From Eubacteriales bacterium (GTDB taxonomy: Bacteria > Bacillota > Clostridia > Lachnospirales > Lachnospiraceae): DNA of 46,655 nt. The notes beneath the pieces were generated by a model. The model saw nothing but the letters and a program-made list of their open reading frames with translations, was not told the origin of the DNA and did no database searches. The DNA is taken from contig JAUNAF010000007.1 of the NCBI GenBank assembly GCA_030527715.1, forward strand, positions 1-46,655. Direction: 5' to 3'. Below are positions 9,602 through 23,734 of this stretch, one piece after another. Each line of letters begins with the position of its first letter. Within the stretch, counting starts at the first letter, position 1. The translations under genes were made by a program, and so were the position numbers.

Positions 9602-10450
9602 TTGCATAATTTCGGAAATAACGAAAACCGGCTGCGCGGCACCTATGAGTTTCCGTTTGAATTTCATCACATCGATGCGGCCCATCCCCGCTACTTTATG
9701 TCCTATCACTGGCATGTGGAGTACGAGATCATCCGGATCCTGGAAGGCAGTCTCACTGTGACATTAGACGAAAAACAGTTCACCGCTTCCGCCGGAGATA
9801 TCATTTTTATCCATAGCGGCATCCTGCATTCCGGGATTCCCGAGGACTGTGTCTACGAATGCATCGTTTTTGATATCCATGCGTTTGTCAAAAACAATCC
9901 GGTCTGCTCCGATTACATGCAGAAAATCATCCGCCAGGAAGTGATGATCTATCACCATTTTACAGACAGATATCCTGAAATCCTCGCCTGTACTGCACCG
10001 CTTTTCGATGCGATCCGAGGACAGTATCCGGGTTATGAGCTGACCGTATTTGGATTATTTTATCACTTTTTCGGACTGATTTTTGAAAAGAGATATTTTC
10101 TGGAGAGTCTGTCACAGACGCGCAGAGACTACCGGCGCATCCTGCAGCTCAAGAAAGTACTGGAATTTATGGAAGAAAATTACAGAAATCAGATCACTCT
10201 GCAGCAGCTCTCGGACACTGTTTCGATGTCCCCGAAATATTTCTGCCGCTTTTTCAATGAAATGACCCATCAGAAGCCGATGGAATATCTCAACCGCCAG
10301 CGCATCGAACAGGCCTGCAGCGAGCTGTCTACCACAGACGATTCCATCACGGAGATCGCCTATCGCAGCGGATTCAATGACCTCAGCTATTTTATTCGGA
10401 TCTTCAAAAAATACAAGGGCGTGACTCCCGGACGCTATCAGCGCGGATAA
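9602..10450 (+). CDS. AraC-family transcriptional regulator, cupin sensor
   Basis: This is the only plus-strand gene. The N-terminal half is an AraC-type cupin sensor (HWHVEYEIIRILEGS, then GDIIFIHSGILHSG); the C-terminal 100 residues carry two helix-turn-helix motifs (ITLQQLSDTVSMSPKYFCRFF and SITEIAYRSGFNDLSYFIRIF) and end in the usual GVTPGRYQ. The start is put at TTG 9602 because AAAAGGAGG sits 7 nt before it; a GTG 17 codons upstream would place that ribosome site inside the gene. It is divergent from fucI and probably activates it on sensing fucose or a derivative. Its last 13 bp overlap the convergent DeoR gene. Confidence 0.9.
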   Translation: MHNFGNNENRLRGTYEFPFEFHHIDAAHPRYFMSYHWHVEYEIIRILEGSLTVTLDEKQFTASAGDIIFIHSGILHSGIPEDCVYECIVFDIHAFVKNNPVCSDYMQKIIRQEVMIYHHFTDRYPEILACTAPLFDAIRGQYPGYELTVFGLFYHFFGLIFEKRYFLESLSQTRRDYRRILQLKKVLEFMEENYRNQITLQQLSDTVSMSPKYFCRFFNEMTHQKPMEYLNRQRIEQACSELSTTDDSITEIAYRSGFNDLSYFIRIFKKYKGVTPGRYQRG

Positions 10451-11202
10451 ATGCAGTTCACACCCGCTTTTTCAAAGCGTGTCAACCACTGCTCCGACGG
10501 CTTTCTATCCGTCACGATCATGCTGACTTCGCGAAGTTCACAGATCTTTGAGAAGGATTCCTGTTCAAATTTTGAATGATCCACCGCAAGGATCACCTCT
10601 TTGGAAGCCCGGATCATCGCGCGCTTGACACAGGAGAACTCATCGGAAGAGTCAAAGCATCCCAGCTCCGGCTGCAGTGCCTTGCAGGAAATCAGCGCCT
10701 TATCTGCACGATAGTCGCGCAGTCCCTCCTCCGCCTTCGGTCCGACCATGGCCAAATAATCCCCTTTCAGGGTTCCGCCGACGGAAATGATATTCCAGGT
10801 ATTTTTATCGGAGAGCTCGATCAGATTCTCGATCGAGTTCGTGATCACTGTGAGCTGTTCCTTCTGCTTCAGCGCCTTGGCGATAAAGACGCTGGTCGTA
10901 CTCGCATCCAGCATAATGCGCTCTCCCTCACTGATCAGACCGGAGACCAGATCCGCTATGATCTGTTTGCCCGCAACATTTCTGTTTTTGCGGACATTAA
11001 ACGGAAGATCTATGCTGGTGCTCTCATTCAGAATCGCACCGCCGTAGCTCTTGATCAGAAGCCCGTCCTGCTCCATTTTATCCAGATCTCTCCGGATCGT
11101 CTCCTCAGAAACAGAAAAAAGACGGCTCAGGTCACTGACGACCACCCTCTTTTCCTGATGAAGTTTTTCAATGATCAGATTTCGACGTTCTACTGCAAGC
11201 AT
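10438..11202 (-). CDS. DeoR-family transcriptional regulator
   Basis: This is a DeoR/GlpR-type regulator of sugar catabolism. Its N-terminal winged helix-turn-helix (VVVSDLSRLFSVSEETIRRDL, residues about 20-40) is followed by the DeoRC sugar-phosphate sensor domain (GERIMLDASTTSVFIA, ITNSIENLIEL, VGGTLKGDYLAMVG). The start MLAVERRNLIIEKL (254 residues) is supported by GAGGT 7 nt upstream; a longer frame lacks a ribosome site. It lies 67 nt downstream of the pduT-like gene in the same direction, so it is probably the last gene of the microcompartment operon and may repress it, sensing a deoxysugar phosphate. Which sites it binds is inference. Confidence 0.88.
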   Translation of the reverse strand: MLAVERRNLIIEKLHQEKRVVVSDLSRLFSVSEETIRRDLDKMEQDGLLIKSYGGAILNESTSIDLPFNVRKNRNVAGKQIIADLVSGLISEGERIMLDASTTSVFIAKALKQKEQLTVITNSIENLIELSDKNTWNIISVGGTLKGDYLAMVGPKAEEGLRDYRADKALISCKALQPELGCFDSSDEFSCVKRAMIRASKEVILAVDHSKFEQESFSKICELREVSMIVTDRKPSEQWLTRFEKAGVNCIYPR

Positions 11203-11269
11203 CTGCGGTACCTCACTTCTGCGATTTTTTCTTTGATCATTCGATTTTATCACTTTTTCAGCTCATCAG

Positions 11270-11818
11270 CTACAGAATTTTTTCACACATTTTTCTGTCA
11301 GGATGTGCGATCACAGAAGAATCCAGATACATTCCTTTCTCAGCAAGGTAGGCTTTTGCCTTTTCCATTGCTGCCTCGACCGCCGATACCTCACCGGTCA
11401 GAAGCATGTAGGATTTTCCGCACATTCCCTTTGCGATACGCAGCTCGATCAGCTCGACAATGGCAGTCTTCGCCGCAATATCTGCCGCTTCGATCACAGA
11501 CGCTGCATCATAAGTCTCAAGGATTCCGAGTGCACTGATATTTTCCACGCTGGTCGTGCCGTAGATCGCAGGAAAAATAGACTCATGCGGATTTCCGAGC
11601 ACAAAGCTGTCGATCAGCTGTGTCTCATATTTCGCACACGCGGTCTCCACTGCAGCCTTCACCGCACTGAGGTCTCCTGTGATCACTGCAATATATTTTC
11701 CCGGGCAGACGGTCTGAGCCTCAATGATTTCCACCTCTGCGGTTTTTACCATAGCATCCGCGGCGGTAATTCCGCTGGCTACGGTCTTGAATTCGATCAT
11801 TCCGATTGCTTTTCCCAT
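11270..11818 (-). CDS. pduT: PduT-like trimeric shell protein with Fe-S pore
   Basis: This is a microcompartment shell protein with two BMC domains in tandem (about 1-90 and 95-182), which forms pseudohexameric trimers. It matches PduT along its length and in 182-residue size. Cys38, in TVCPGKYIAV, occupies the position that in PduT holds a [4Fe-4S] cluster at the trimer centre, an electron conduit through the shell. It lies immediately after the pduS-like gene, whose product would be its redox partner. The start at MGKAIGMIEF is supported by AAGGGCAG and an 18-nt gap. Confidence 0.93.
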   Translation of the reverse strand: MGKAIGMIEFKTVASGITAADAMVKTAEVEIIEAQTVCPGKYIAVITGDLSAVKAAVETACAKYETQLIDSFVLGNPHESIFPAIYGTTSVENISALGILETYDAASVIEAADIAAKTAIVELIELRIAKGMCGKSYMLLTGEVSAVEAAMEKAKAYLAEKGMYLDSSVIAHPDRKMCEKIL

Positions 11819-11835
11819 AACTGTATCTGCCCTTT

Positions 11836-13155
11836 CTATGCAACGATTACAATATATTTCTCTGTCACCGCAGTCACTCTTCCGGAGATGGACGCATGCA
11901 CTGCCGTGCTGAGTCCTTTGGACGGTCTGGCGATCATCTGTCCGGCGCTCACGGTATCAGACACCTTCACGATCGGCTCTGCCGGTGCTCCGATGTGCTG
12001 CGACAGGTTGATGATGACTTTTTTCACAGCCGCAGGCTCCTCTTTCAGAGGTGCCGGCTGATCATATCTGGTCAGTCCGAGGCGGGCTGTCAGACGTTCC
12101 TCAGGAACCCTGCGAAATTCTCTGGCTGCTTTTACCGGTGCTGCCGTCACAACCGGAGGCTTTAATCCTGCACTGCGCAGCCCTGCTTTGAACTCAGCCA
12201 TCTGTGTTCTCGGCGCAAGACTCTGCGGACAGGCATACATTTCACAGACACCGCAGGAACTGCAGAAAAAGGTATTGCTGTACGGTACGATATTTCTGTA
12301 ATCCTGATTGGCTGCCGCACGCATGAAAAGATGCGGCTCGATCGGATGTCCGAGACCGTTTCTCGGACAGAGATCCGTACACATCTGACACTGACAGCAG
12401 ATCGAGGCTGCGCGCTTCAGATCGATCGCCGCTGACCGCTGTTTCTTCAGCACGATCGGATGATCTGCCGGAAGTACCAGGATCGCATTCGTTGTCTTGG
12501 TGACCGGCTGCTCCGGAGTTCCAAGAGATCCCATCATCGGCCCTCCGACCAGATACACCGGATCTTTCACCTTCACTTCACCGGCCATCGAGACGACCTC
12601 TTGAAGAGGCGTACCGATCGGAACACGCACGGTGACAGGATCCGTGACCTCTGCAACAACAGACACCAGCTTATCCGTCACCGGCTTCTGCTGCAGGGCT
12701 CTTGAAATGTTATAGACCGTCTCAACATTAAACACTGCCACACCCTGCTCGATCGGAATTCCTCCCGGGCGGACGACACGCTTTGTCGCCTCGTAGATCA
12801 GTACCACCTCATCACCCATTGGATAGGCTTCCTCCAGCAGATGGATCCTCATTTCCGGATATTCATCGATATAGAGCTTCAGCGCTCGGACAGTATCAAT
12901 GTAAGATTTCTTGACGCCGATGACAGCTTCCTTTGCCCCGACAGTCTCCGCGATCAGATGAAAGGTACGAAGGATCTCTTCTGCATGTTTCTGAAGAAGC
13001 TGCCTATGAAGCTTCAGCAGCGGTTCACATTCTGCACAGTTCATCAGAATGATCTCAGCGTGCTCATCCAGCTTTGCATGCGTCGGAAAGCCCGCACCGC
13101 CGGCGCCGACCACACCGTTCTCCTGTATGATTTTCTTTAATTCATTGATCTCCAT
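11836..13155 (-). CDS. pduS: PduS-like RnfC-family ferredoxin/flavin reductase
   Basis: This is a flavin and iron-sulfur protein related to RnfC and PduS. The 439 residues show the N-terminal nucleotide/FMN motif GVVGAGGAGFPTH, a central SLBB-type region, two four-cysteine cluster motifs (Cys253-256-259-263 and Cys298-301-304-309), and a C-terminal segment with a lipoyl-like fold (AGQMIARPSKGLST). PduS in B12 microcompartments reduces cobalamin; this locus is B12-independent, so here it more probably moves electrons through PduT, for cofactor recycling or to activate the glycyl-radical enzyme (inference). It is followed 17 nt later by pduT. Confidence 0.92.
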   Translation of the reverse strand: MEINELKKIIQENGVVGAGGAGFPTHAKLDEHAEIILMNCAECEPLLKLHRQLLQKHAEEILRTFHLIAETVGAKEAVIGVKKSYIDTVRALKLYIDEYPEMRIHLLEEAYPMGDEVVLIYEATKRVVRPGGIPIEQGVAVFNVETVYNISRALQQKPVTDKLVSVVAEVTDPVTVRVPIGTPLQEVVSMAGEVKVKDPVYLVGGPMMGSLGTPEQPVTKTTNAILVLPADHPIVLKKQRSAAIDLKRAASICCQCQMCTDLCPRNGLGHPIEPHLFMRAAANQDYRNIVPYSNTFFCSSCGVCEMYACPQSLAPRTQMAEFKAGLRSAGLKPPVVTAAPVKAAREFRRVPEERLTARLGLTRYDQPAPLKEEPAAVKKVIINLSQHIGAPAEPIVKVSDTVSAGQMIARPSKGLSTAVHASISGRVTAVTEKYIVIVA

Positions 13156-13159
13156 GCCT

Positions 13160-13432
13160 CTACTCCAATCTCAGACCCGCTCCATCGTCCACGATCCCTA
13201 CGATTGCCGCATCTACCGGCGCTGCCTCTGTATCGCAGCCGATCCTGGCCGCACTGCCCAGTGCAACCAGCACATACTCTCCAATGCCGGCACCGACATT
13301 GTCGATGGCGACGATCTGATGGAAGCTGCCCTTCATCTGCGAAAGCGGTTCTACGATCATAAATTTATTGCCGATCAGTCTTTCATTTTTTCTGGTAGCA
13401 ACCACGCTTCCGACGACCTTGCCTACTATCAT
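13160..13432 (-). CDS. pduN: EutN/CcmL-type pentameric vertex protein
   Basis: This is a BMC-P shell protein that caps the icosahedral vertices. The 90-residue product starts MIVGKVVGSVVATRK and contains VAIDNVGAGIGEYVLV and GSAAR, the family's conserved blocks. It is the only pentamer gene in the locus, so it should form all vertices. It sits 4 nt before pduS and 39 nt after pduL. Confidence 0.95.
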   Translation of the reverse strand: MIVGKVVGSVVATRKNERLIGNKFMIVEPLSQMKGSFHQIVAIDNVGAGIGEYVLVALGSAARIGCDTEAAPVDAAIVGIVDDGAGLRLE

Positions 13433-13471
13433 TCTTCGTCAACCTCCCATCAGCTGCATCACTGAATTTCT

Positions 13472-14116
13472 TTATTTTACGATCCTCACCGTCGAACCCG
13501 GTCCGATCCCGGCGGCGTTTGCCTCATCCGTGTCCAGGTGCATTTCCAGCTGAAAGCTCTCATCCACACGGATGATCACATGCTGAAACACGGTTCCTCT
13601 GTCATTGTCTGCTCTGACCGCTACTTCCTGTCCGTTGGACACGCCTGCTGCCATGGCATCCGCCGGCGACATATGTATGTGCCGCTGTGCCACGATACAG
13701 CCTTCCTCCAGATACAGAACTCCCTTAGGTCCGACCACTGCGATCGGTGCAGAGCCCTTCAGATCTCCGGACTGCCGTATCGGAGCTCTCACCCCGAGTC
13801 TGACTGCATCTGTTGCAGAGATCTCCACCTGAGATGCACTGCGGCACGGTCCAAGGATCCGGACATTCTCAATCGCGCGGAGTTTCAGTCCCACGATCGT
13901 GACCTGCTCATTTGAAGCAAACTGGCCGCCCATCAGCTCCTTTTTTCTGGTCAGCTGATATCCCTTTCCAAAAAGGATCTCCAGATGCTCCTGTGTAAGA
14001 TGTACGTGTCTGGCAGAAACTCCGACCGGGACGAGATATCCGTCTCCGGCCGCAGTCTGTTTCTGCATCGCCTCGATCACCAGTCTGGTGATGAGCTCAA
14101 TGTTCTGATTATCCAT
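13472..14116 (-). CDS. pduL: PduL-type phosphate propanoyltransferase
   Basis: PduL converts propionyl-CoA and phosphate to propionyl-phosphate and CoA, recycling CoA inside the shell. The 214-residue protein has the two domains and zinc ligands of the family: SARHVHLT (about 34-41), QRHIHMSPADAM and LEMHLDTDEAN. The first 18 residues (NIELITRLVIEAMQ) form an amphipathic helix like an encapsulation peptide, followed by a short linker, so the enzyme is probably luminal. It follows the extended shell-protein gene by 35 nt. Confidence 0.94.
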   Translation of the reverse strand: MDNQNIELITRLVIEAMQKQTAAGDGYLVPVGVSARHVHLTQEHLEILFGKGYQLTRKKELMGGQFASNEQVTIVGLKLRAIENVRILGPCRSASQVEISATDAVRLGVRAPIRQSGDLKGSAPIAVVGPKGVLYLEEGCIVAQRHIHMSPADAMAAGVSNGQEVAVRADNDRGTVFQHVIIRVDESFQLEMHLDTDEANAAGIGPGSTVRIVK

Positions 14117-14151
14117 CTGTCACACCCGCTTTCTGCGATGTACAAAGCTGA

Positions 14152-14721
14152 TCACTGTACCTTAGGCAGGATCATCTCCACATCTGTATGCGGTCTCGGG
14201 ATCACATGTGTCGCAACCAGCTCACCCAGTCTGGATGCAGCTGCGCTTCCGCTCTCAACGGATGATTTTACTGCTCCGACATCTCCGCGCACCATCACGG
14301 TCACCAGTCCGGAACCGATCTTCTCCGTGCCAACCAGAGTTACATTTGCAGCCTTGCACATAGCATCTGCTGCCTCGATCGCTGCCACCAGTCCTCTTGT
14401 CTCGATCATTCCCAATGCTTCCTGAGCCATTCTTTTTTCCTCCTTTTTTTCTGTTGTCTTCCCGGTCCTGATTTCTGCCGGTTCTACTGATTCTGCCGGT
14501 TCTGACGTTTTAACCGCTTCTTCGGCCGGATCTTCGGTTATGTTTCCGACTGTCTTTTTTTCTTCGACCGCCGGTATTTTCTCTGTCTTATTCTTCTCGA
14601 CAGCTGTCAGTGCCTTTCGCACCTCACTGTCTGCCATCTCCCACGGACGGAGATTCTCCTCTTTTCCGGAGATGATTCTGGCGGTCACCTTCTTTGCAGG
14701 CACTTCTCTTTCGGATGACAT
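14152..14721 (-). CDS. BMC-H shell protein with 97-residue charged N-terminal extension
   Basis: This microcompartment hexamer protein is extended. The last 92 residues are a canonical PduA/PduJ-like BMC-H domain with the KIGSG pore loop, about 86% identical to the shell protein at 15047-15322. In front lie 97 extra residues: a segment with [13 protein letters not shown] that may be helical, then a low-complexity Glu/Lys/Thr/Pro/Ala stretch. The start at 14721 is well supported: AGGAGG lies upstream and its ATG overlaps the previous gene's TGA. A second strong ribosome site (AAAGGAGG) precedes an internal ATG at 14430 that would give the plain 92-residue shell protein, so two forms may be made. 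I do not recognise the extension. Confidence 0.85.
14428..14445 (-). promoter_or_regulatory. Internal ribosome binding site and start in the extended BMC-H gene
   Basis: On the minus strand AAAGGAGG is followed 7 nt later by an in-frame ATG (14428-14430), exactly where PduA-like proteins begin (MAQEALGM). This is one of the best ribosome sites in the operon, yet it lies inside the longer gene. It suggests dual initiation, giving an extended and a plain hexamer subunit. Confidence 0.65.
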
Positions 14722-15023
14722 CACGACTCCTCCTGCTTTTTCCTCCATCTGCTGGCACTCAGTTCCACCATGCGGACAGTCTCCTCATGCGGTCTTGCAA
14801 TGATTGCCGTCGCCGCCGGCTTCTTGATGGCCCGCGTCTTCGCAGCTTCCACCGCCTGCTCAACGGATGCAATATCTCCCTGTATGATCATGGTAACCAG
14901 ACGGCCGCCCAGTTTTCTCTCCCAGGAGGCCAGCTCCACATCCGCCGTCTTCAGCATGATGTCCAGAGCATCCATCGCCGCTACCACACCGGTGATCTCG
15001 ACAAAGCCATATGATTTCCCCAT
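14721..15023 (-). CDS. BMC-H shell protein, arginine pore variant
   Basis: This 100-residue hexameric shell protein starts [12 protein letters not shown]. The BMC fold is clear ([39 protein letters not shown]), but the pore loop reads KLGGRL in place of the usual KIGSGL, putting an arginine near the pore. A short basic tail ([11 protein letters not shown]) follows the domain. GGAGAA supports the start. Its stop codon overlaps the start of the next shell gene (TGATG), a sign of coupled translation. It is a PduK/CcmK-like paralogue; the exact counterpart is unsure. Confidence 0.9.
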
Positions 15024-15046
15024 GGTTTTCTCCTTAACAGTCTGCT

Positions 15047-15322
15047 TTAGATCTTCGGAAGGATCTTCTCCACATCTTCATGCGGTCTCGGGATCACATG
15101 TGCTGCCACCAGCTCGCCAAGTCTTGTAGCTGCCGCACTTCCGCTCTCAACTGCTGCCTTTACTGCTCCGACGTCTCCGCGCACCATCACGGTCACCAGT
15201 CCGGAACCGATCTTCTCTGTGCCGACCAGAGTTACCTCTGCAGATTTGGTCATTGCATCTGCTGCCTCGATCGCAACGGTAAGTCCTCTTGTCTCAATCA
15301 TACCCAGAGCTTCTTTTGCCAT
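15047..15322 (-). CDS. pduA: PduA/PduJ-like hexameric shell protein
   Basis: This canonical 91-residue BMC-H protein probably forms the bulk of the shell facets. [13 protein letters not shown], the pore motif KIGSG and [16 protein letters not shown] are diagnostic. The start is put at 15322 because GGAGG lies 8 nt upstream; a reading 10 codons longer would absorb that site. About 86% of residues are identical to the BMC domain at 14152-14430, showing a recent duplication. KIGSG pores in PduA conduct polar substrates such as 1,2-propanediol. Confidence 0.95.
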
Positions 15323-15357
15323 TTTTTCATCCTCCACTTTCTGATATTTCAATGATT

Positions 15358-15672
15358 TTAGTTTTTATCCAATGCACTGATCTTCAGCATCTTCTGACAG
15401 TCCTCTGTAGGATTTGCTATGACATGATGCTGTACTACGCCTGTGGCAGCCTCCGCCGCTCTCATGCCGGCTTCTACTGCTGCTGTCACATCCTCCACAC
15501 TGCCGCGGTACTTGATCGTCACGAGCAGCGGGACCGGAAGGGAATCGGCATTGGCAGGTTTATTTTTGTCAAAGACCTCCAGGCGCACATTCGCCGCCTT
15601 GCATCCGGCATCTGCGGCCAGAAACGCTGTGCTCAGTCCAAAAACTTCTAAGATTCCTACTGCTTCTGCCAT
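15358..15672 (-). CDS. BMC-H shell protein with enlarged pore-side loop
   Basis: This 104-residue BMC-domain protein ([29 protein letters not shown]) ends with a typical [15 protein letters not shown]. Between the second and third strands the usual KIGSG loop is replaced by a longer segment with [11 protein letters not shown], so the hexamer pore should differ in size and charge. The start is preceded by AGGAGAAG. It is the first shell gene after the alcohol dehydrogenase. Related loop-extended BMC-H proteins are known from glycyl-radical microcompartments, but I cannot assign a specific name. Confidence 0.88.
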
Positions 15673-15692
15673 CTTCTTCTCCTGTCAGTGTT

Positions 15693-16901
15693 CTAATTGT
15701 TTACGATTGCGATCTTTAATCCGGTCATTTCCAGATTCTTCCGGTGACCTTCATTGATCTGATCCAGCGGATAGCGGTCAGTGATCAGTTCCTTCATCGG
15801 CAGACCGATCGCATTTGCTCTCTTCAGAAAATCAAAGGTCGTCGCATAATCTCTGAGGGTGTATACCCAGGAACCGACCAGTGTGATCTCCTTGGAACAG
15901 AGATCGAAGTGCGGATTGATCGTTGCATCTCCACCATTGATAAAAAATCCAAGCTCACAGAGTCCGCCGCCGTTGCGGATAAATTTATAGATATTGGAAT
16001 GTGCCTTCGGGTTGCCGGTACACTGGAAGGCAAAGTCTGCGAAATGACCGTCAAACTGTGCTTTCACTGCTCCCGCAAGCTCCTCGATGCCTTTGTGCTC
16101 CATAAAGTTTACGCTCTTTGCAGCACCCATCTTTTTGGCAAATTCCAGTCGTTTTGCGTTTCCGTCCACTGCCACGATATTTTCCACTCCCATCGTGCGC
16201 AGCACTGCGATACAGATCAGTCCGATCGGTCCGCATCCCTGCACAACGACACGGCTGTTGAAGCGCAGGATACCGGTGGTCTTTGCTCTCTCCACCGCAT
16301 GTACCAGAACGGCACACGGCTCGATCAGGATCCTGGAATCCAGATCCAGATCGCTGACATTAAATACTGTGGATCCCTCGCGGATAAAGATATAATCCGA
16401 AAACCATCCATTCAGGTGGATATCATCATCCGGAAGCAGTCCGTAGACATCTGCACCGCCCACATTCTGCTTATTCAGATCATACATGGTGATCTCCGGA
16501 TCATCCTTGAAGATCATGCAGGTGACTACCTTGTCTCCGATGTGGAGATCTTTTCCCGCAGAATCTTTCTTCACATTTTTACCCATTGCGACGATCTCGC
16601 CGGTGCCCTCATGTCCGAGTGCCACAGGGATCAGTCCGAACGGGTCTCTCTTAAATTCATGGGCATCGGTTCCGCAGATTCCGCAGCCCTCTACCTTTAC
16701 CAGAATATCCCCGTCCCCGAGAGGCGGAATCGGGAATTCCTTAATATCATAATGTTCCAATGCAGTCAGCATTGCCACGCGGGCAGTCTTCGGAATGCCG
16801 CCGGAGGGCTTTGCAGCTGCGGAGGCATTTGCGGTCTGTCCTGCCATGCTGGCCAGCACCTGTTTTACGATTGCCTCAATATCTGCCTGATTTGCTTTCA
16901 T
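15693..16901 (-). CDS. Zinc-type alcohol dehydrogenase, microcompartment-targeted
   Basis: This 402-residue medium-chain dehydrogenase probably reduces propanal to 1-propanol and regenerates NAD+ inside the compartment; lactaldehyde reduction is also possible. Catalytic-zinc ligands are visible in CGICGTD (Cys76) and GHEGTG (His97, Glu98); the Rossmann motif is GCGPIGL. The structural-zinc cysteine quartet usual after this region is absent. The first 20 residues (DIEAIVKQVLASMAG) form an amphipathic helix followed by an Ala-rich linker, a likely encapsulation peptide. GGAGGAGAG precedes the ATG, and the gene follows the aldehyde dehydrogenase by 9 nt. Confidence 0.92.
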   Translation of the reverse strand: MKANQADIEAIVKQVLASMAGQTANASAAAKPSGGIPKTARVAMLTALEHYDIKEFPIPPLGDGDILVKVEGCGICGTDAHEFKRDPFGLIPVALGHEGTGEIVAMGKNVKKDSAGKDLHIGDKVVTCMIFKDDPEITMYDLNKQNVGGADVYGLLPDDDIHLNGWFSDYIFIREGSTVFNVSDLDLDSRILIEPCAVLVHAVERAKTTGILRFNSRVVVQGCGPIGLICIAVLRTMGVENIVAVDGNAKRLEFAKKMGAAKSVNFMEHKGIEELAGAVKAQFDGHFADFAFQCTGNPKAHSNIYKFIRNGGGLCELGFFINGGDATINPHFDLCSKEITLVGSWVYTLRDYATTFDFLKRANAIGLPMKELITDRYPLDQINEGHRKNLEMTGLKIAIVNN

Positions 16902-16910
16902 ACTCTCCTC

Positions 16911-18299
16911 CTATCTAATACACAGGCTGTCTGTCATGACACAGCGTCTCGCTTTTGTGAAGGTCTTTGCACTGGTCAGTCCCTCACCGGTACGGCTTGC
17001 GATCGTGAAGGTGCAGATGCTCTCCCCGCCAAAGCCGAGTGCTGCATAGGACGGACCGTTTTTTACAAGGATCGCGGTGTCCATTGCCTTCGCATACTCA
17101 GTAATGTGGTCTACATTCTTCGAATGAATATGCGCGGAATGACGGTTGCCGTGTTCCAGCCACAGTGCACACTCCAGACCCTCGCGGAAATCTCTGACTC
17201 TGACGATTCCCAGGATCGGCATCATCAGCTCTGTCGTGATCAGCGGATGCTCCTTCTCACCGAAGAAGGTGATACAGCGGATATTGTCCGGTACCTCAAT
17301 ACCGATCATGCCAAGCAGTACCTTTGCACTCCTGCCGACACATTTGCGGTTCAGCTTTCCGTTCTGAAGAACCACCTCCGTCAGTGCTGCCTGTTCTTTC
17401 TCATTGATCCGATAGCAGCCCTGCTCTGTCAGCATATAGTGCATCAGCTCATCGGCAATGCTCTCCACAGCGACAATCTCCTTCTCTGCGATACATGGGA
17501 GATTGTTGTCGAAGGTACATCCGTTTACGATATCCTCTGCCGCCTTGCGGACATCTGCGGTCTCATCTACCAGCGCCGGCGGATTGCCCGCGCCTGCTCC
17601 AATACCGCGCTTTCCGCTGGAAAGTACCGCGGTCACGACTCCGGGACCTCCGGTAGCTGCGATCAGCGGAATATCCTTATGCTTCATCATAATACTGCTG
17701 GTCTCCAGCGTCGGATGCTCTACCGTGCATGCAATGTTATCCGGACCGCCGCACTCCAGCGATGCCTCATTTGCCAGATTGATCGCATAGATCGAGGTCT
17801 TGACCGCTGCCGGATGAGGATTGAATACCACGGTATTGCCTGCGGCAAGCATTCCCATCACGTTGCAGAGCACGGTCTCACTCGGATTGGTACACGGGGT
17901 GATCGCTCCGATCACTCCAAACGGTCCCATCTCAACCAGAGTGAGTCCCCGGTCTCCGGAATATGCCTCGGTGCGGAGATCCTCTGTGCCCGGCACCTTC
18001 TGTGCTACCAGCTGATGCTTCAGGATCTTGTGTCCGACATTGCCCATGCCGGTCTCCTCCACGCCCATTCTTGCCATGATCTCCGCAGTCTCCATAGTCT
18101 TTCTGCGGATGGCTGTTATGATCTGTTCTCTTTGATCCAGCGACATCCTGCGAACGATCTGCTGAGCCTTCTTTGCTTCCTCGATTGCTTCATTCATATC
18201 CTGAAAGACGCCGTGCATTTCAGAGGATTTTTCCCTGATCTGCATCTTTGCCATCACTTCTTTTACGATGCCCTGTATCAGATTCTCGTCCAATGTCAC
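16911..18299 (-). CDS. pduP: CoA-acylating propionaldehyde dehydrogenase (PduP-like)
   Basis: It oxidises propanal with NAD+ and CoA to propionyl-CoA in the lumen. The 462 residues match the PduP/EutE family, with the catalytic cysteine Cys269 in FDNNLPCIAEKE, the coenzyme motif GPFGVIGAITPCTNP and GAGNPPALVD. The N-terminal helix (ENLIQGIVKEVMAKMQ), joined by a short linker, is a typical encapsulation peptide. AAAGGGAGGG precedes the ATG. It sits 15 nt after the aldolase and 9 nt before the alcohol dehydrogenase; the two enzymes together recycle NAD+/NADH. Confidence 0.95.
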   Translation of the reverse strand: MTLDENLIQGIVKEVMAKMQIREKSSEMHGVFQDMNEAIEEAKKAQQIVRRMSLDQREQIITAIRRKTMETAEIMARMGVEETGMGNVGHKILKHQLVAQKVPGTEDLRTEAYSGDRGLTLVEMGPFGVIGAITPCTNPSETVLCNVMGMLAAGNTVVFNPHPAAVKTSIYAINLANEASLECGGPDNIACTVEHPTLETSSIMMKHKDIPLIAATGGPGVVTAVLSSGKRGIGAGAGNPPALVDETADVRKAAEDIVNGCTFDNNLPCIAEKEIVAVESIADELMHYMLTEQGCYRINEKEQAALTEVVLQNGKLNRKCVGRSAKVLLGMIGIEVPDNIRCITFFGEKEHPLITTELMMPILGIVRVRDFREGLECALWLEHGNRHSAHIHSKNVDHITEYAKAMDTAILVKNGPSYAALGFGGESICTFTIASRTGEGLTSAKTFTKARRCVMTDSLCIR

Positions 18300-18314
18300 A
18301 GGAATCCCTCCCTT

Positions 18315-19133
18315 TTAATGCAGTAGTCCGAGCTGCTCCATGACTTTCTTTGTAATGTTGGTGATCAGTTCCGGATCTGAGCTTACGCTTCCGGTCGTCT
18401 GGCTGGTTCCGCAGGTGCAGCTGCCGCCGCAGTTGTGGCAGTTCTTTGCTCCCTTGTTCTGACAGAGATCTGCCGGATGTCTTCCTGCAAGTCCCATCTT
18501 TCTGCGGATCTCATAGAGCTTCTCTACTGTTGCAGCGTCAAACTCCTTCGGACCGCCGAGCATCTTGGACTGATACAGCAGCTGTGCGTAAAATTCTACA
18601 GATTCCATCTTCATATAAGCTGCCAGAAGATCTGTGGACCAAGTCAGCGCACCATGGCTTTCCAGAAGAACTGCATCAAAGTACGGAAGGTACTTTTCTA
18701 CGTTATCCGGGATCTCCATTGTGGACGGTGTACCGTACTCTGCGATCGGAACACAGCCAAGTGCGATGACTGCCTCCGGCATGATCGGCTGTGTCAGCGG
18801 AATGCCTGCGATCGCAAAGCTGGTTGCATATACCGGATGTGCATGCACTACCGCTCCTACGTCCGGTCTCTTCTGATATACTCTCATATGCATCTTGATC
18901 TCGGAGGAAGGACGGAAGTTTCCGTTTGCCTGAAGCACCTTACCCTCTCGGTCCACCTTACAGATGTATTCCGGGGTCATAAATCCCTTGGAAACACCGG
19001 TCGGTGTGCAGAGAAACTCGTTATCATTGAGTTTTACGGAGATATTACCGTCATTAGCCGCAACCATGTTGCGGTCATAGATACGTTTTCCAATCTCACA
19101 AATCTGTTTTTTGATTTCAAATTCGTTTACCAT
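18315..19133 (-). CDS. fucA: L-fuculose-1-phosphate-type class II aldolase with Cys-rich linker and encapsulation peptide
   Basis: It cleaves a deoxyketose 1-phosphate (fuculose- or rhamnulose-1-phosphate) to DHAP and lactaldehyde. Residues 1-215 are a class II zinc aldolase of the AraD/FucA family: NDGNISVKL, GVSKGFMTP, Glu78, HAHP (His97, His99) and His160. FucA enzymes usually end here; this one continues with a linker holding Cys224, 232, 235, 239 and 241, then a C-terminal helix (PELITNITKKVMEQLG) like an encapsulation peptide. It is the first gene behind its own promoter (19186-19214). The exact substrate, fuculose- or rhamnulose-phosphate, cannot be told from sequence. Confidence 0.92.
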   Translation of the reverse strand: MVNEFEIKKQICEIGKRIYDRNMVAANDGNISVKLNDNEFLCTPTGVSKGFMTPEYICKVDREGKVLQANGNFRPSSEIKMHMRVYQKRPDVGAVVHAHPVYATSFAIAGIPLTQPIMPEAVIALGCVPIAEYGTPSTMEIPDNVEKYLPYFDAVLLESHGALTWSTDLLAAYMKMESVEFYAQLLYQSKMLGGPKEFDAATVEKLYEIRRKMGLAGRHPADLCQNKGAKNCHNCGGSCTCGTSQTTGSVSSDPELITNITKKVMEQLGLLH

Positions 19134-19185
19134 GTGCGCTTCCTCCCAAGCTTTTACCGAGTCGATTTTTGACTATTTTTGTTTT

Positions 19186-19214
19186 ATTATATCCCGTTTC
19201 TGTAGGATGGTCAA
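19186..19214 (-). promoter_or_regulatory. Second microcompartment promoter, upstream of fucA
   Basis: TTGACC (19209-19214) and TATAAT (19186-19191) on the minus strand are 17 nt apart, 52 nt upstream of the aldolase start. The -10 is followed by AAAACAAAAA, nearly identical to the sequence after the -10 of the promoter at 23500-23528. The whole element lies beyond the end of the GTPase gene. Confidence 0.88.
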
Positions 19215-19218
19215 TCTT

Positions 19219-19710
19219 TTATTGTGGTTTTATGTTGTTTTGTTGTGTTGTTTTCTGTTGTTTCTCCCAGGGCATCACATCTCCTTCCTCTCGAAGATGC
19301 TCCAGGATCTGTGGGATCCCTTCTCCGGTTTTCGAATCCACATAAAAAACCGTCGTACATCCTGCCAGCCTCAGCCACGAGGCTGCCCTTTGGGGATCTC
19401 CCGCCGGATCCTTCACCTTGGTCACGATACCGATCACCTCTCGGTTACAGGTACAGGTGATACAGGGCGGATACAGCGAGTAGGGCTCTGTCGAGGACAG
19501 CAGCAGCCCGACCACATCCGCCTCGTAGGTGTACAGTGCAAGTGCATGCCCCAATGAATGCACCTGTGCATACTCTCCCGGAGTGTCGATCACAACATCA
19601 AAATGATTTACATACTGTGTCTTGTGATAGCGGATCTTCTCCCCCTTCAGCGCCTGCGTCAGGGTGGTCTTTCCGCATTCACTTCTTCCTATTAATATGA
19701 TCTTCTTCAT
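19219..19710 (-). CDS. pduV: EutP/PduV-like small GTPase
   Basis: This Ras-like GTPase of the EutP/PduV family is associated with microcompartments; PduV has been linked to compartment positioning. The 163 residues show GRSECGKT (G1), DTPGEY (G3) and TKVKD (G4). The start MKKIILIGR is the family's usual N-terminus and leaves a 20-nt gap to the previous gene; the ribosome site (AGAAAAG) is weak. The C-terminal tail (QQKTTQQNNIKPQ) is low complexity and is written by the AAAACAAC repeats that lie upstream of the next promoter, so the protein end doubles as control DNA. Confidence 0.9.
   Translation of the reverse strand: MKKIILIGRSECGKTTLTQALKGEKIRYHKTQYVNHFDVVIDTPGEYAQVHSLGHALALYTYEADVVGLLLSSTEPYSLYPPCITCTCNREVIGIVTKVKDPAGDPQRAASWLRLAGCTTVFYVDSKTGEGIPQILEHLREEGDVMPWEKQQKTTQQNNIKPQ
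19224..19264 (-). repeat. GTTGTTTT repeat cluster upstream of the fucA promoter
   Basis: Plus-strand copies GTGGTTTT (19224), GTTGTTTT (19234), GTTGTTTT (19247) and GTTGTTTC (19257) have starts 10, 13 and 10 bp apart. They begin 10 bp upstream of the -35 box and overlap the last codons of the GTPase gene. The same octamer is repeated at the other microcompartment promoter, so this is probably a regulator-binding array. Confidence 0.7.
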
Positions 19711-19730
19711 GATAATATGATCTTTTCTTC

Positions 19731-20108
19731 TCAGGTCTTTGTGACCGGACATACCGTAAATCCCAGGGTATTCCCGATATACTCCAGGATCGCATGCACA
19801 GAGGCTTCCACCTCAGACACGGTACCGGTAATGATCAGGCTGCCGCTGAAACGGTCCACAAATCCCAGCTCCACCGCCGCAGACTTTACCGCAATGTCTG
19901 CCATGATGATCGCTGTCTCTGCCGGACTGATTGTGAGGATTCCGATCGCCGATCTTGCATAGTCGACCGTCGGATTCAGTCCGAGCTTCTCATACATCAC
20001 ACGGTCCGGGTTTGCAATGATGTGTGCCAGCGAGATCTGTTTTCCAGGGACCAGCTCCTGCACGATCCGCTGTTTCATCTCTGCCGAGAATCCATCTGTA
20101 TATCCCAT
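19731..20108 (-). CDS. pduU: PduU/EutS-like circularly permuted shell protein
   Basis: This hexameric shell protein has a circularly permuted BMC domain and an N-terminal beta-barrel-forming extension. RIVQELVPGKQISLAHIIANP and SAIGILTISPAETAIIMADIA are close to PduU. The start is placed at 20108 (125 residues): the AGGAGG that overlaps the stop of the activase gene is 9 nt away, whereas an ATG three codons earlier touches the ribosome site. It lies 5 nt after the activase and before the GTPase, as in many pdu-type loci. Confidence 0.94.
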   Translation of the reverse strand: MGYTDGFSAEMKQRIVQELVPGKQISLAHIIANPDRVMYEKLGLNPTVDYARSAIGILTISPAETAIIMADIAVKSAAVELGFVDRFSGSLIITGTVSEVEASVHAILEYIGNTLGFTVCPVTKT

Positions 20109-20113
20109 CTGCG

Positions 20114-20908
20114 TCATCCTCCTATCCTGCATTCCAGTCCGCTGACTCTCTGCGCGGTCCCAAGCAGCACCTTCATCTTTTCCATTGTCGGAGGGAGCAC
20201 ATCTCCCATCAGATATGGTCGATTCAGCCCCTCGTACTTATCCTGCCCCAGTCTGTGGTACGGCAGCAGATGCAGCCTTCTCACATTTCGCAGTTCTTTT
20301 GCAAATCCTGCGATCGCCGCGATTTCCCGCTCTGTATCGTTAAACCCCGGAATCACCGGAATGCGGATGCTCAGCTCTGTCCTGCCGGATGCTGCCACTC
20401 TGCGTGCATTTGCCAGCATCAGCTCGTTTCCTCTGCCGGTAAATTCTTTATGCTTTGCAGAATCCATATGTTTAATATCCATCAGATACTGATCCAGATA
20501 CGGAAGAATCTCCTCTATTGCCGAATAATCTGCACAGGCCATACTCTCCATCGCCGTGCTGATACCATTCTCCTTCGCAGCACGCAGCAGATCCCTGGAG
20601 AACTGCGGCTGGCAAAGGCTCTCTCCGCCGGAGAGTGTCAGTCCTCCGCCGGAACGATAGTAATAGTTGCGGTCCTTCTCGACTGTCTCCATCACCTCGG
20701 CCACTGTGACATCCTCTCCGATCACTTTCGGTCTGCCTTTGACCATCATCGTCTGTATCTGGTATTCCTGTGACTCCGGATTGCAGCACCAGCGGCAGCG
20801 AAGCACACAGCCTTTCAGGAAGACGATCGTCCGGATACCGTTTCCGTCATGGATCGAGTATCGCTGGATATCAAAGATCCTTCCCTTTGTCTGTAAATAT
20901 TCTTTCAT
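20114..20908 (-). CDS. Glycyl-radical enzyme activase (radical SAM)
   Basis: It uses SAM and a [4Fe-4S] cluster to install the glycyl radical on the neighbouring dehydratase. With numbering from the ATG at 20908, the cluster motif is Cys34-x3-Cys38-x2-Cys41, preceded by IQRYSIHDGNGIRTIVFLKG; LTLSGGES is the SAM-contacting GGE region. At 264 residues it is short: the ferredoxin-like insert with two extra clusters, found in many dehydratase activases, is absent, so it resembles the PflA layout. Its ATG overlaps the dehydratase TGA by one base (TGATG), giving coupled expression. Confidence 0.94.
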   Translation of the reverse strand: MKEYLQTKGRIFDIQRYSIHDGNGIRTIVFLKGCVLRCRWCCNPESQEYQIQTMMVKGRPKVIGEDVTVAEVMETVEKDRNYYYRSGGGLTLSGGESLCQPQFSRDLLRAAKENGISTAMESMACADYSAIEEILPYLDQYLMDIKHMDSAKHKEFTGRGNELMLANARRVAASGRTELSIRIPVIPGFNDTEREIAAIAGFAKELRNVRRLHLLPYHRLGQDKYEGLNRPYLMGDVLPPTMEKMKVLLGTAQRVSGLECRIGG

Positions 20909-23427
20909 CAAAATCCCTGCTCCGTTCTGCGAATGATATCGTCCTGCAGCGATCTGGACAGCGTTGTGAACAGTGCACTGTAGCCCGCCACGCGCACTAC
21001 CAGGTGTGCATAATTTTCCGGATGCTTCTGTGCATCCAGCAGTGTCTCACGGTCCACTACGTTGAACTGCATATGGCTTCCTTTCTGATCAAAGTACGTG
21101 CGGATCAGATTTACAAAGTTATTGAGTCCCTCGTAACCGCTCAGTGCGGACGGATGAAACTTCTGATTAAACAGCGTGCCGTTGGAGGCGATGCTGTGAT
21201 CCAGTCTGGATACGGAATTTGCCGCAGCAGTCGGTCCGTGGGTATCTTTTCCCGCAGAAGGTGACACTCCGTCTGCCACCGGTGTGTGGGCAAGTCTTCC
21301 GTCCGGTGTTGCACCTGTCTGTGCACCGAGGGGTACATTCGCGGATACCGGATACAGACCAGCCTGAAACTGACCTCCGCGTGGATTGCGAAACTCCTGC
21401 ATCGGTCTGGTATAGGTGTAGGCGACATCTCTTGCAAATGCATCCACTTCCGGGATGTCGTTGCCGAACTTCGGCACTTCATCGATCCACGAAAGCAGCC
21501 GGTCACAGAACTGTTTCTCTTCCGCTGTCGGCTCTGCAGCCATAATCGCCGTGATCATCTGTCCGATCTGCTCCTCTGTCAGCGGTCTTCCCTCTGCCGC
21601 CATCTGTCTTGCCGCCGTGATCGTCATATCCGCCGCAGATGTCGCATCAAATCCTTTTCCGTAATTGAGCTCCAGCGCATGTTTGTACTGTGCCAGAGTC
21701 AGTTTTTTCTCCTCAAATACCAGCTTCTTGACTGCATACAGGGAGTCTGCCATATTTGCGATTCCGAATCCCTGCGGTCCGGTAAAGTTGTAGACCGCGC
21801 CGCCCTCCTGTACGCTCTTTCCTCTGTGGATGCAGTCCTCGATCATACAGGACTGGAACGGATTCGGACAAAGCTGCGCGTGCGCTGTATCAATGGCATT
21901 GTCTGCATTTACCAGAAGCGAGATCTGATACTTCATCTGGTCCTTATATGCCTGATAAAATTCCTCAAAGGTGGTCATCTCCTCCACCTGTCCGGTCTGA
22001 ATGCTGACCTTCTCTCCACGGTCATAGCCGTTGGAGAATACCAACTCAAGCGGGCGGCACATATTGAAGAATGCTGCGTCATGCCAGCCTTCGGTCTTTC
22101 CGGCCTTCTGCGGCTCCACACATCCGATAATGGCATAGTCTCTGGCATCCTCCAGTGTCAGACCACGGTTCATCAGCGATGGTATGATCACCTCATCATT
22201 GTAATATGCCGGAAGTCCTATCCCCGTCCTTGTCAGCCCTGCAGCCTTTAAGAGCAGTTCATGGGGACTTCCGTTCCATACTCGGATGGAAAGGGAGGGC
22301 TGAGGAAGAAATACATGGTGTGATGCCTGAATACACATGAAGGACAGATCATTTGTCACATCCACACCCTCTGTATTCTGTCCTCCGACGATCAGATTCT
22401 GGAAAAGACTGTAGCCCGCAAAGCCTTCCGCGCTGACCGCATCCCTGCATTTATTCAGATCATTGAGCTTGACCCAGATACAGTCGATCAGTTCCTGGGC
22501 AAATTCTCCGGTCAGACGTCCCTCATCAAGATCCTTCTTATAATAGGGATACATATACTGGTCGAACCGGCCTGGTGAGATCGAATGTCCGCTGGACTCG
22601 ATCTGCATCAGCTGCTGCACAAACCAGAAGCTCTGGCATGCCTCGTAGAAACTCTGAGCTCCTTTCTGCGGTACACGTCCGCAGTTTCTCGCAATCTGAA
22701 GCAGTTCTTCTTTTCTGACCGGATCACTGCATCTGTCTGCCTGCTCTTTAGCAAGTACCATATAGCGCTGTGCATAGCGGATCGCAGCCTCGCAGCTGAT
22801 GATCACTGCCTGCAGGAAGCGTGTTTTTCTGGCATAATCCGCATCTCCGAATCTGCATGTTTCCAGCTCTGTCCTTGCCTCATCTATAATGCCTTCGAAT
22901 CCGATGCGCAGTACCTTGTCATACTGAACCGTCACATGGCCGACTCCGTTATAAAAGTAATTGCCCGGGGTAAAGATATTATGTTCTATCGAGCGGATCG
23001 CCTCCGGCGCCATGTAGGATGTCGCCAGTTCGCTCGTAGTCTTTCCCTTCCAGTATCTGTTCACTTCCAGGAGTTCCTTCTTTACCTCCTCTGAGATCGA
23101 AAACGGATCCGCACTGCGGTGTTCCACGGTGTCAAACTCTGCCTCCAGCCACTCGTATGAGAACTCCGGGTAGGTCTGACAGCTGCGCGGCGCAAGCGTC
23201 GTACTGCCGACGATCAGCTCTTCCTCGCGGATCGTGATCGGCAGATGATCCAGAATATGAGAAAACGCCTTCGCTCTTCTTATCACGATCGGCTGTCCTT
23301 CCGTCTGTCGATAGGATTCCGTCAGAAGCACCGCTCTGGCCGACTCGATCCTCGGCATCTCACGATAAAGATTCTCCACCAGCCTCGTAATTCGTTCAGA
23401 TTTTGGTACATCAGTATTCTGAAACAT
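20908..23427 (-). CDS. B12-independent glycyl-radical 1,2-propanediol dehydratase
   Basis: This signature enzyme of the compartment removes water from 1,2-propanediol (or glycerol) to give propanal by radical chemistry. It has 839 residues from the ATG at 23427, chosen because AAGGGAG lies 8 nt upstream; the GTG seven codons earlier would include it. The thiyl-radical motif is GCVEPQKAGKTEGWHD (Cys436, Glu438) and the glycyl-radical motif is RVAGYSALF (Gly815); SSGHSISPGRFDQY is typical of the diol/glycerol dehydratase branch. No clear encapsulation peptide is seen at either end. It heads the operon under the promoter at 23500-23528. The substrate is assigned from context. Confidence 0.94.
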   Translation of the reverse strand: MFQNTDVPKSERITRLVENLYREMPRIESARAVLLTESYRQTEGQPIVIRRAKAFSHILDHLPITIREEELIVGSTTLAPRSCQTYPEFSYEWLEAEFDTVEHRSADPFSISEEVKKELLEVNRYWKGKTTSELATSYMAPEAIRSIEHNIFTPGNYFYNGVGHVTVQYDKVLRIGFEGIIDEARTELETCRFGDADYARKTRFLQAVIISCEAAIRYAQRYMVLAKEQADRCSDPVRKEELLQIARNCGRVPQKGAQSFYEACQSFWFVQQLMQIESSGHSISPGRFDQYMYPYYKKDLDEGRLTGEFAQELIDCIWVKLNDLNKCRDAVSAEGFAGYSLFQNLIVGGQNTEGVDVTNDLSFMCIQASHHVFLPQPSLSIRVWNGSPHELLLKAAGLTRTGIGLPAYYNDEVIIPSLMNRGLTLEDARDYAIIGCVEPQKAGKTEGWHDAAFFNMCRPLELVFSNGYDRGEKVSIQTGQVEEMTTFEEFYQAYKDQMKYQISLLVNADNAIDTAHAQLCPNPFQSCMIEDCIHRGKSVQEGGAVYNFTGPQGFGIANMADSLYAVKKLVFEEKKLTLAQYKHALELNYGKGFDATSAADMTITAARQMAAEGRPLTEEQIGQMITAIMAAEPTAEEKQFCDRLLSWIDEVPKFGNDIPEVDAFARDVAYTYTRPMQEFRNPRGGQFQAGLYPVSANVPLGAQTGATPDGRLAHTPVADGVSPSAGKDTHGPTAAANSVSRLDHSIASNGTLFNQKFHPSALSGYEGLNNFVNLIRTYFDQKGSHMQFNVVDRETLLDAQKHPENYAHLVVRVAGYSALFTTLSRSLQDDIIRRTEQGF

Positions 23428-23499
23428 CCTTACACTCCCTTCTTTCACTTACTTTCATCTCTATTTTATCCCCGTCGATCGATTGCATGTTTTTGTTTA

Positions 23500-23528
23500 A
23501 TTATACTCTGTACCTCACCCATAGTCAA
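23500..23528 (-). promoter_or_regulatory. Main microcompartment promoter, upstream of the dehydratase
   Basis: TTGACT (23523-23528) and TATAAT (23500-23505) on the minus strand are 17 nt apart; the predicted leader is about 65 nt. AAACAAAAA follows the -10, as at the fucA promoter. No riboswitch-like structure is evident in the leader. Confidence 0.9.
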
Positions 23529-23549
23529 CATAACCCAACACAATTATGA

Positions 23550-23588
23550 TTTGTTTTTGTTGTTTTTGTGTTGTTTTCGAGTTGTTTT
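23550..23588 (-). repeat. GTTGTTTT repeat cluster upstream of the dehydratase promoter
   Basis: Plus-strand GTTGTTTT occurs at 23559, 23570 and 23581, starts exactly 11 bp apart, with a degenerate copy (TTTGTTTT) at 23550. The array starts 22 bp upstream of the -35 box. The helical phasing points to a multimeric DNA-binding protein; the same octamer lies upstream of the fucA promoter. Confidence 0.75.
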
Positions 23589-23707
23589 TAATCTAACAGC
23601 ATTCTCATCGCTACCCGCGCAGACAATAGAATGCACGTTCCGCGAACATTTTTTGTTATGAACAAAAAAAAGCCACAGAACCCCCTCTTTCGAGGATCTC
23701 CCATGAC
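23589..23707 (-). terminator. Terminator of the RpiR gene and adjoining spacer
   Basis: On the minus strand an imperfect stem with a GAAA tetraloop (TCCTC-GAAA-GAGGG, outer part with G-U pairs, 23672-23707) is followed by eight T (23664-23671), an intrinsic terminator 28 nt past the RpiR stop. It continues into a perfect AT palindrome TTTTTTGTT-ATG-AACAAAAAA (23649-23669). Positions 23589-23648 hold nothing else I can name apart from GTTC-CGC-GAAC. Confidence 0.7.
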
Positions 23708-23734
23708 TTTCATCGTAAACAATATATACAGCGA

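Follow-up and report, generated by a model that had tools for sequence, protein, structure and literature searches.

Sequence comparison suggests that the Hext gene of the fucose/rhamnose organelle (microcompartment type GRM5) encodes both a shorter and a longer shell tile in Lachnospiraceae and some of their relatives. The gene was analysed in a 46,655-nucleotide stretch of DNA from a Lachnospiraceae genome (hereafter the window), where a 97-residue N-terminal extension precedes a plain, PduA-like BMC-H domain of 92 residues. Comparison of orthologues shows that the extension and an internal ribosome site are both maintained by selection, and the best reading, in which we have high confidence, is that two products arise from the one gene in the style of PduB/PduB' but on a hexamer. 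Products of two lengths are known for PduB, and Hext would extend them to the canonical BMC-H hexamer.

The GRM5 locus and its extended shell gene

The minus strand of the window carries a microcompartment locus with genes for a glycyl radical enzyme, a class II aldolase, an aldehyde dehydrogenase, PduL and BMC shell proteins (Table 1). Matches to PF02901, PF01228 and PF00596 account for the glycyl radical enzyme and class II aldolase by which GRM5 was recognised, and by gene content and order, both of which agree with the available descriptions of the fucose/rhamnose type (PMC6325248, PMC3557285), the locus is of this type. Seven PF00936 domains are distributed over six genes of the locus, and none was found elsewhere in the genome. 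The names H104, H91, H100 and Hext were coined in this analysis; the genes lie in the order H104-H91-H100-Hext-PduL, and across the loci compared below H104 is among the three genes preceding Hext in 129 of 133 usable rows. The labels ADH, activase and PduV were assigned from sequence and gene order. Homologues of PduS and PduT are reported for 57 of 57 GRM5 loci in the accessible text of a review (PMC6325248). In the window locus the RnfC-type model, which served as the PduS test, reached 248 bits, just above its cut-off of 245.95; the PduT-family model TIGR02526 matched over almost its full length, at 126 bits and below its cut-off of 250, and the match to the EutP/PduV model fell just under its cut-off. 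No structured RNA was matched in Rfam within positions 10000-24000. Judged by reading and by a hydrophobic count, four enzymes of the locus have termini resembling encapsulation peptides (16911-18299, 13472-14116, 15693-16901 and 18315-19133), N-terminal on the aldehyde dehydrogenase, PduL and ADH and C-terminal on the aldolase.

Within the 198-aa open reading frame of Hext, PF00936 is matched as a single stretch at residues 111-186 (104.9 bits, cut-off 24.5). The best single-domain match of the domain among solved structures is PduA (3ngk), which ranks below the tandem fusion construct 6ner. As originally predicted, the extension is joined to a domain about 86% identical to the adjacent plain shell protein (78 of 91 residues shared with H91), and the gene start is marked by both a TGATG overlap and an AGGAGG. 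The first codon of the long form is likely the ATG at 14721, likely rather than proven because further in-frame starts, a GTG at 14724 and an ATG at 14748, lie upstream inside H100. In a same-genus orthologue (L103) the long-form start is also found directly behind the H100 stop.

Table 1. Features of the Hext gene and of neighbouring genes in the window.
Feature	Positions	Strand	Remarks
Hext, extended BMC-H gene, long form of 189 aa + stop	14152..14721	-	open reading frame; PF00936 over C-terminal part, E 2.2e-30
N-terminal extension, 97 residues	14431..14721	-	charged, disordered (predicted), without Cys
Likely long-form start ATG	14719..14721	-	overlaps H100 TGA as TGATG
AGGAGG, ribosome site of the long form	14729..14734	-	within the 3' end of H100
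Lineage-specific 28-residue addition (putative)	14638..14721	-	includes PWE; absent from L103
Internal ATG (Met29)	14635..14637	-	aligns with the start codon of same-genus orthologue L103 (nucleotide alignment)
AAGGAGG, internal ribosome site	14439..14445	-	in frame as Lys-Glu-Glu; eight bases before the ATG at 14430
Internal ATG, predicted start of the 92-aa plain form	14428..14430	-	whole-protein start in unextended orthologues
Plain BMC-H domain, 92 aa + stop	14152..14430	-	
PduL phosphate propanoyltransferase	13472..14116	-	directly downstream of Hext; positional marker for Hext
H100, BMC-H	14721..15023	-	position of PduK-like Cphy_1181; C-terminal tail 7 aa by alignment
H91, plain BMC-H paralogue	15047..15322	-	control gene without extension
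H104, BMC-H	15358..15672	-	
Glycyl radical enzyme of the GRM5 locus	20908..23448	-	

Distribution, coding character and history of the extension

Loci for comparison came from two sources. A scan of species genomes, with the window protein as query and its best 80 matches retained, gave 79 loci and 57 GRM5 rows; 22 of the 57 are extended, in a sample biased by that query. An even draw of 397 Lachnospiraceae genomes contained 84 with a match, of which 78 were sampled and yielded 72 GRM5 rows (no usable row came from L120, L165, L172, L173, L179 and L180). Eight loci without a start motif were left out, and removal of ten copies reduced 129 rows to 119 non-redundant GRM5 loci. In 59 of these the gene between H100 and PduL is extended by 28 residues or more, with a median extension length of 57 and a range of 28-102. 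The family draw by itself, copies included, has it in 41 of 72 GRM5 loci, which makes it a common case, and three extended rows are from outlying Clostridia or Firmicutes (L062, L063, L066). When the sister gene H91 was put through the same procedure, the single candidate among 110 proved to be an N-run. Extensions of this kind are widespread and belong specifically to one gene of the locus. In these counts L142 and L022 were scored as unextended, with probable GTG and TTG starts respectively, and L174 and L175 as extended on weak start sites.

A search with the extension alone against 299 genomes of the family gave, besides the genome's own, 12 weak matches in 11 genomes, the best with E 3.3e-4 and the rest at about 0.005 or weaker; the orthology of Hext therefore rests on gene position and on the two conserved ends of the extension. 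Against solved structures (phmmer) the best match of the extension, to an IMP dehydrogenase over 34 residues (E 0.0013), was taken as chance.

With about half of the GRM5 loci unextended, and an upstream frame that in the window by itself would be open by chance some 5% of the time, the gene could be thought to begin at 14430 behind a mis-called start. This is hardly credible in view of the constraint on the extension, its own ribosome sites and its recurring first residues. Eight independent pairs of close orthologues, none of which includes the window's own extension, show about 102 synonymous and 63 non-synonymous differences in the extension, which gives a pooled pN/pS of 0.18; the value in the domain is 0.035. 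Over 3535 codons the extension frame is free of stops, while the two alternative frames hold 149 and 198; the selection of open frames contributed in part to this zero. The extension thus holds up as real coding sequence, and a mis-called start or chance open frame was rejected on pN/pS together with the codon and control tests given below. Homologues lacking the extension, which had been named as evidence against it, do exist (60 of 119 loci), but the tree and the selection data point to a trait gained and lost, not to an artefact.

The extensions usually begin with MAEEKK or a near variant and end with KEEKR. Their middle part, rich in Lys, Ala, Glu and Thr, is of low complexity and highly variable, and evolves fast through in-frame insertion and duplication. 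The charge-hydropathy rule classes all 59 as disordered, and in an AlphaFold2 model of the window protein as a monomer residues 1-100 are without structure or helix (pLDDT about 50), against about 90 for most of the domain. Net charge is positive in 51 of 59; the window tail, at -2, belongs to the eight that are not basic, so that a simple nucleic-acid tether does not fit the window species. None of the 59 contains Cys.

On a tree of seven neighbouring proteins, built with the Hext domain but without extensions or tails, 18 changes of state are seen for the extension, of which at least 14 fall on supported branches, and this marks it as dispensable. A search of eight same-genus genomes matched three, namely the window's own, G121 (the source of L103) and G299, the last over the domain only, so that the comparison is with one orthologue, L103. 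Its extension has 46 residues, and its start, ATG GCA GAT, is aligned to Met29 of the window protein. The first 28 residues of the window protein thus seem to have been added later, upstream of an older start, and the Met29 ATG is probably that older long-form start. A 10-residue segment of the window extension is a short duplication. The G299 match (L095) is BMC-H-like with one TAG inside.

The original prediction had also proposed a short binding helix in a 13-residue segment of the extension. By a crude hydrophobic-moment scan this segment does stand out as amphipathic, but it spans the junction between the 28-residue addition and the older start, its MAD aligning with the start codon region of L103, and it occurs in no other of the 59 extensions; PWEM and Trp are present in the window's alone. 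With a sequence confined to the window and no helix in AlphaFold2 residues 1-100, a conserved binding helix was rejected, which leaves room for a helix that the segment might form upon binding.

Two repeats were seen in the gap between H100 and Hext. In L125 (positions 1854-2045) a 23-bp tandem repeat of 8.3 copies appears to occupy much of this gap; its period is not divisible by three and it could feed frame-shifting growth of extensions. The 194-nt gap of L029 contains a pair of similar units, both with ATTCATAAGGAGG at their end, a pattern that suggests duplication of an element.

The internal start and its two probable products

An internal start that would yield the unextended subunit was part of the original prediction, and a conserved extension together with a conserved internal ribosome site was indeed found in other Lachnospiraceae. 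The domain Met is preceded by AAGGAGG in 55 of 59 extended genes. As a control, the same motif precedes none of 3766 internal in-frame ATGs in 376 neighbouring genes of the fetched GRM5 loci, and AGGAGG precedes three; before the 15 other ATGs within extensions and the 186 ATGs within domains AGGAGG does not occur. The codons of the site are fixed. The Glu at residue -4 (58 of 59 rows) is written GAG in 58 of 58 cases, compared with 111 of 340 Glu codons elsewhere in the extensions, and the Lys at residue -5 (54 of 59 rows) is AAG in 54 of 54, compared with 217 of 561; these Fisher comparisons are uncorrected for phylogeny, and thinning to 42 dissimilar extensions leaves GAG at 41/41 and AAG at 38/38.

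The codons bear on the notion that only the long form is made and that Lys-Glu-Glu is a fossil of an ancestral ribosome site. Unextended orthologues do start from the same site (AGGAGG in 55 of 60), and a Lys/Glu-rich linker could mimic AAGGAGG. A fossil would nevertheless be expected to decay to AAA and GAA, which is not seen at either codon, and Lys-Glu elsewhere in the extensions is encoded by AAG GAG in just 2 of 40 instances. We regard this notion as very unlikely, and the short form is very likely also made.

Pairing with the 16S tail is stronger at the internal than at the upstream site in 58 of 59 extended genes (-11.6 against -10.3 in the window). The upstream site of the long form reaches a score of 5 of 7 or more in 51 of 59, and the long-form start lies no more than 30 nt from the H100 stop in 49 of 59. 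From the two sites we infer relative amounts in which the short form is probably in excess of the long form. In the centroid of the folded, isolated 341-nt stretch the internal site is free of pairing, in the minimum-energy structure part of it is paired, and its ATG is paired in both; the RNA fold of the region is mildly stable (z -2.3).

The closeness of the long-form start to H100, the stronger internal site and the fast-evolving middle with its in-frame insertions and duplications would also suit a scheme in which translation of the extension carries ribosomes over a long gap between H100 and Hext, the tail being tolerated ballast. Such coupling seems improbable to us, as the pN/pS of the extension and its recurring Lys/Ala/Glu/Thr composition indicate constraint on the amino acids, and in 20 of the 60 loci scored as unextended the gap reaches 84 nt or more, room for 28 codons, without any extension, although two of these (L142 and L125) may hide an unrecognised or frame-shifted one.

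Orientation of the tail and its possible role

The original prediction placed the N-terminus on the concave, probably cytosolic, face of the hexamer, which fits the structural literature on PduA and GRM2 in its accessible parts. The PduA N-terminus is on the concave face, and tagged PduA is handled as outward-facing, with doubt stated for native compartments; cryo-EM of a GRM2 particle has the convex face inside, and one docking study, to the opposite effect, took the concave face as luminal. By analogy with PduA and GRM2, the tail of Hext probably projects into the cytosol. Mixed hexamers are plausible given the 86% identity of the domain to H91, and hetero-hexamers of BMC-H paralogues are reported in the literature as far as it was available.

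Under the explanation that we favour, one gene with nested starts would give two BMC-H subunits, the strong internal site a short plain tile, probably in excess, and the upstream site a long tile whose N-terminal tail is disordered and in most cases basic. Facets would be mixtures of both forms, perhaps with H91 as well, so that only some tiles are tailed, and if the published structures apply the tails would surround the compartment with a sparse polyelectrolyte fringe. The fringe might keep compartments apart or tie them loosely to cytoplasmic structures, a PduK-like job for which the evidence is the tail trade-off described below, and the internal start would set the dose of tailed tiles. 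Taken as a whole, with two products, mixed facets, an outside fringe and a role in spacing or positioning, the explanation is a tentative one, to which we give slightly less than an even chance. It is tempting to go further and to speculate that GRM5 compartments require an outside disordered tail, carried on the same face either by the C-terminus of H100 or by the N-terminus of Hext, with the dose of the latter set by a ribosome site embedded in coding sequence, but this extended version is doubtful. If it is true, these organelles would be spaced or positioned by a surface fringe that is swappable and controlled in dose. The predicted two-form gene makes testable the role and face of disordered shell tails and the cell's control of the tailed-tile fraction, and it suggests a natural low-density surface-display site for engineering.

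The likeness to PduB has suggested a different function, in which, in a genome without PduB, the long form would bind the enzyme core by its N-terminus and the short form would only tile. The genetic logic is the same as that of PduB/PduB', where, in the accessible accounts, a shell protein is made from overlapping genes in two versions, one of them with a 37-aa N-terminal extension that links shell and core; this nested start is seen again in Hext by sequence conservation. In the window genome (91.5% complete) nothing scored over the cut-off of the PduB model TIGR04501, the sole weak match, 28 bits against 310, being on the PduT-like gene, and an 18-residue segment of the window's extension is amphipathic in pattern (moment 0.50). 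However, an 18-mer with at least six large hydrophobic residues and no proline after the third residue is present in 4 of 59 extensions, window included, while all four encapsulation-peptide-like enzyme termini of the locus pass the same test; the tail is predicted to be disordered, and canonical BMC-H N-termini are probably outward-facing. PduB is moreover a two-domain BMC-T in which the first 22 residues of the extension are described, in the same accounts, as a predicted amphipathic core-binding helix, whereas Hext has a single BMC domain and a disordered tail of 28-102 residues. It also differs from an encapsulation peptide, a short amphipathic helix on a cargo enzyme, since its extension sits on a shell protein and is without predicted helix. 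We consider a core tether unlikely.

The cytosol-facing tail with a part in spacing or positioning compartments, as we infer it for Hext, draws on PduK, a PduA-like BMC-H with a long tail that is needed for cellular distribution, its loss sending Pdu compartments to the poles according to the accessible literature. The tail of PduK is C-terminal with a four-Cys motif and a possible Fe-S cluster in the available text of PMC6325248; that of Hext is N-terminal and free of Cys in all 59 extensions, and a tail-free form would come from the same gene. Cphy_1182 of Clostridium phytofermentans belongs to the same locus type and occupies the same position before PduL. A footnote in Petit et al. 2013 (PMC3557285) aligns just its residues 73-161 with PduA, so that an extension of some 72 aa is implied; the likeness is drawn from this footnote, and the accessible text is without the word "extension" and without discussion of an extension or internal start. 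The original statement that such an extension is known in no described shell family is therefore nearly right, the exception being this implied one. The available text of a catalogue of BMC loci (PMC8217296) mentions extensions of up to 200 residues, mostly C-terminal, and that of BMC Caller (PMC9052549) one N-terminally extended BMC-H, H_fuchsia; no internal start, two-form product or GRM5 case was found in those parts of either. Nor was a description of a two-form canonical BMC-H hexamer found in the literature searched, which covered few subscription papers.

A link to PduK is also suggested by the neighbouring H100, at the position of Cphy_1181, which the available text of PMC3557285 calls PduK-like. 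H100 has a C-terminal tail of at least 15 residues in 43 of the 60 loci without the extension, compared with 5 of the 59 that have it (Fisher 5e-13, uncorrected for phylogeny). Phylogenetic regression keeps the association in four versions (P 1.7e-5 to 4.7e-4); a strict paired test on 14 supported pairs fell short of significance, with median P 0.06-0.22 depending on cut-off. The H100 tail and the Hext extension share one stretch of DNA, and competition for DNA space is an alternative reading of the trade-off, although the 20 unextended loci with gaps of at least 84 nt do have the room.

Among candidate partners, PduV was rejected, its presence showing no association with the extension (10/15 versus 10/24, P 0.19). 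For the permuted BMC-H (BMCp) the corresponding figures are 12/15 and 11/24 (P 0.049, uncorrected).

Many H100 tails are not basic. Unextended loci with a long C-terminal tail include L065, L060, L072, L109 and L118, some of these tails being rich in Lys, Arg and Ala; Lys/Ala-rich, extension-like tails were noted in L060, L065, L086 and L118. A motif LG[QED]DPPDF, with variants including LGQDPPDF, is conserved in the H100 tails of L039, L040, L043, L045, L050 and L121, and related tails occur in L037, L052, L057, L110, L116 and L126. A second type, rich in Glu and Asp and ending in YLQEV or similar (L021, L024, L108, L129, L055, L130), resembles at its end a C-terminal docking motif.
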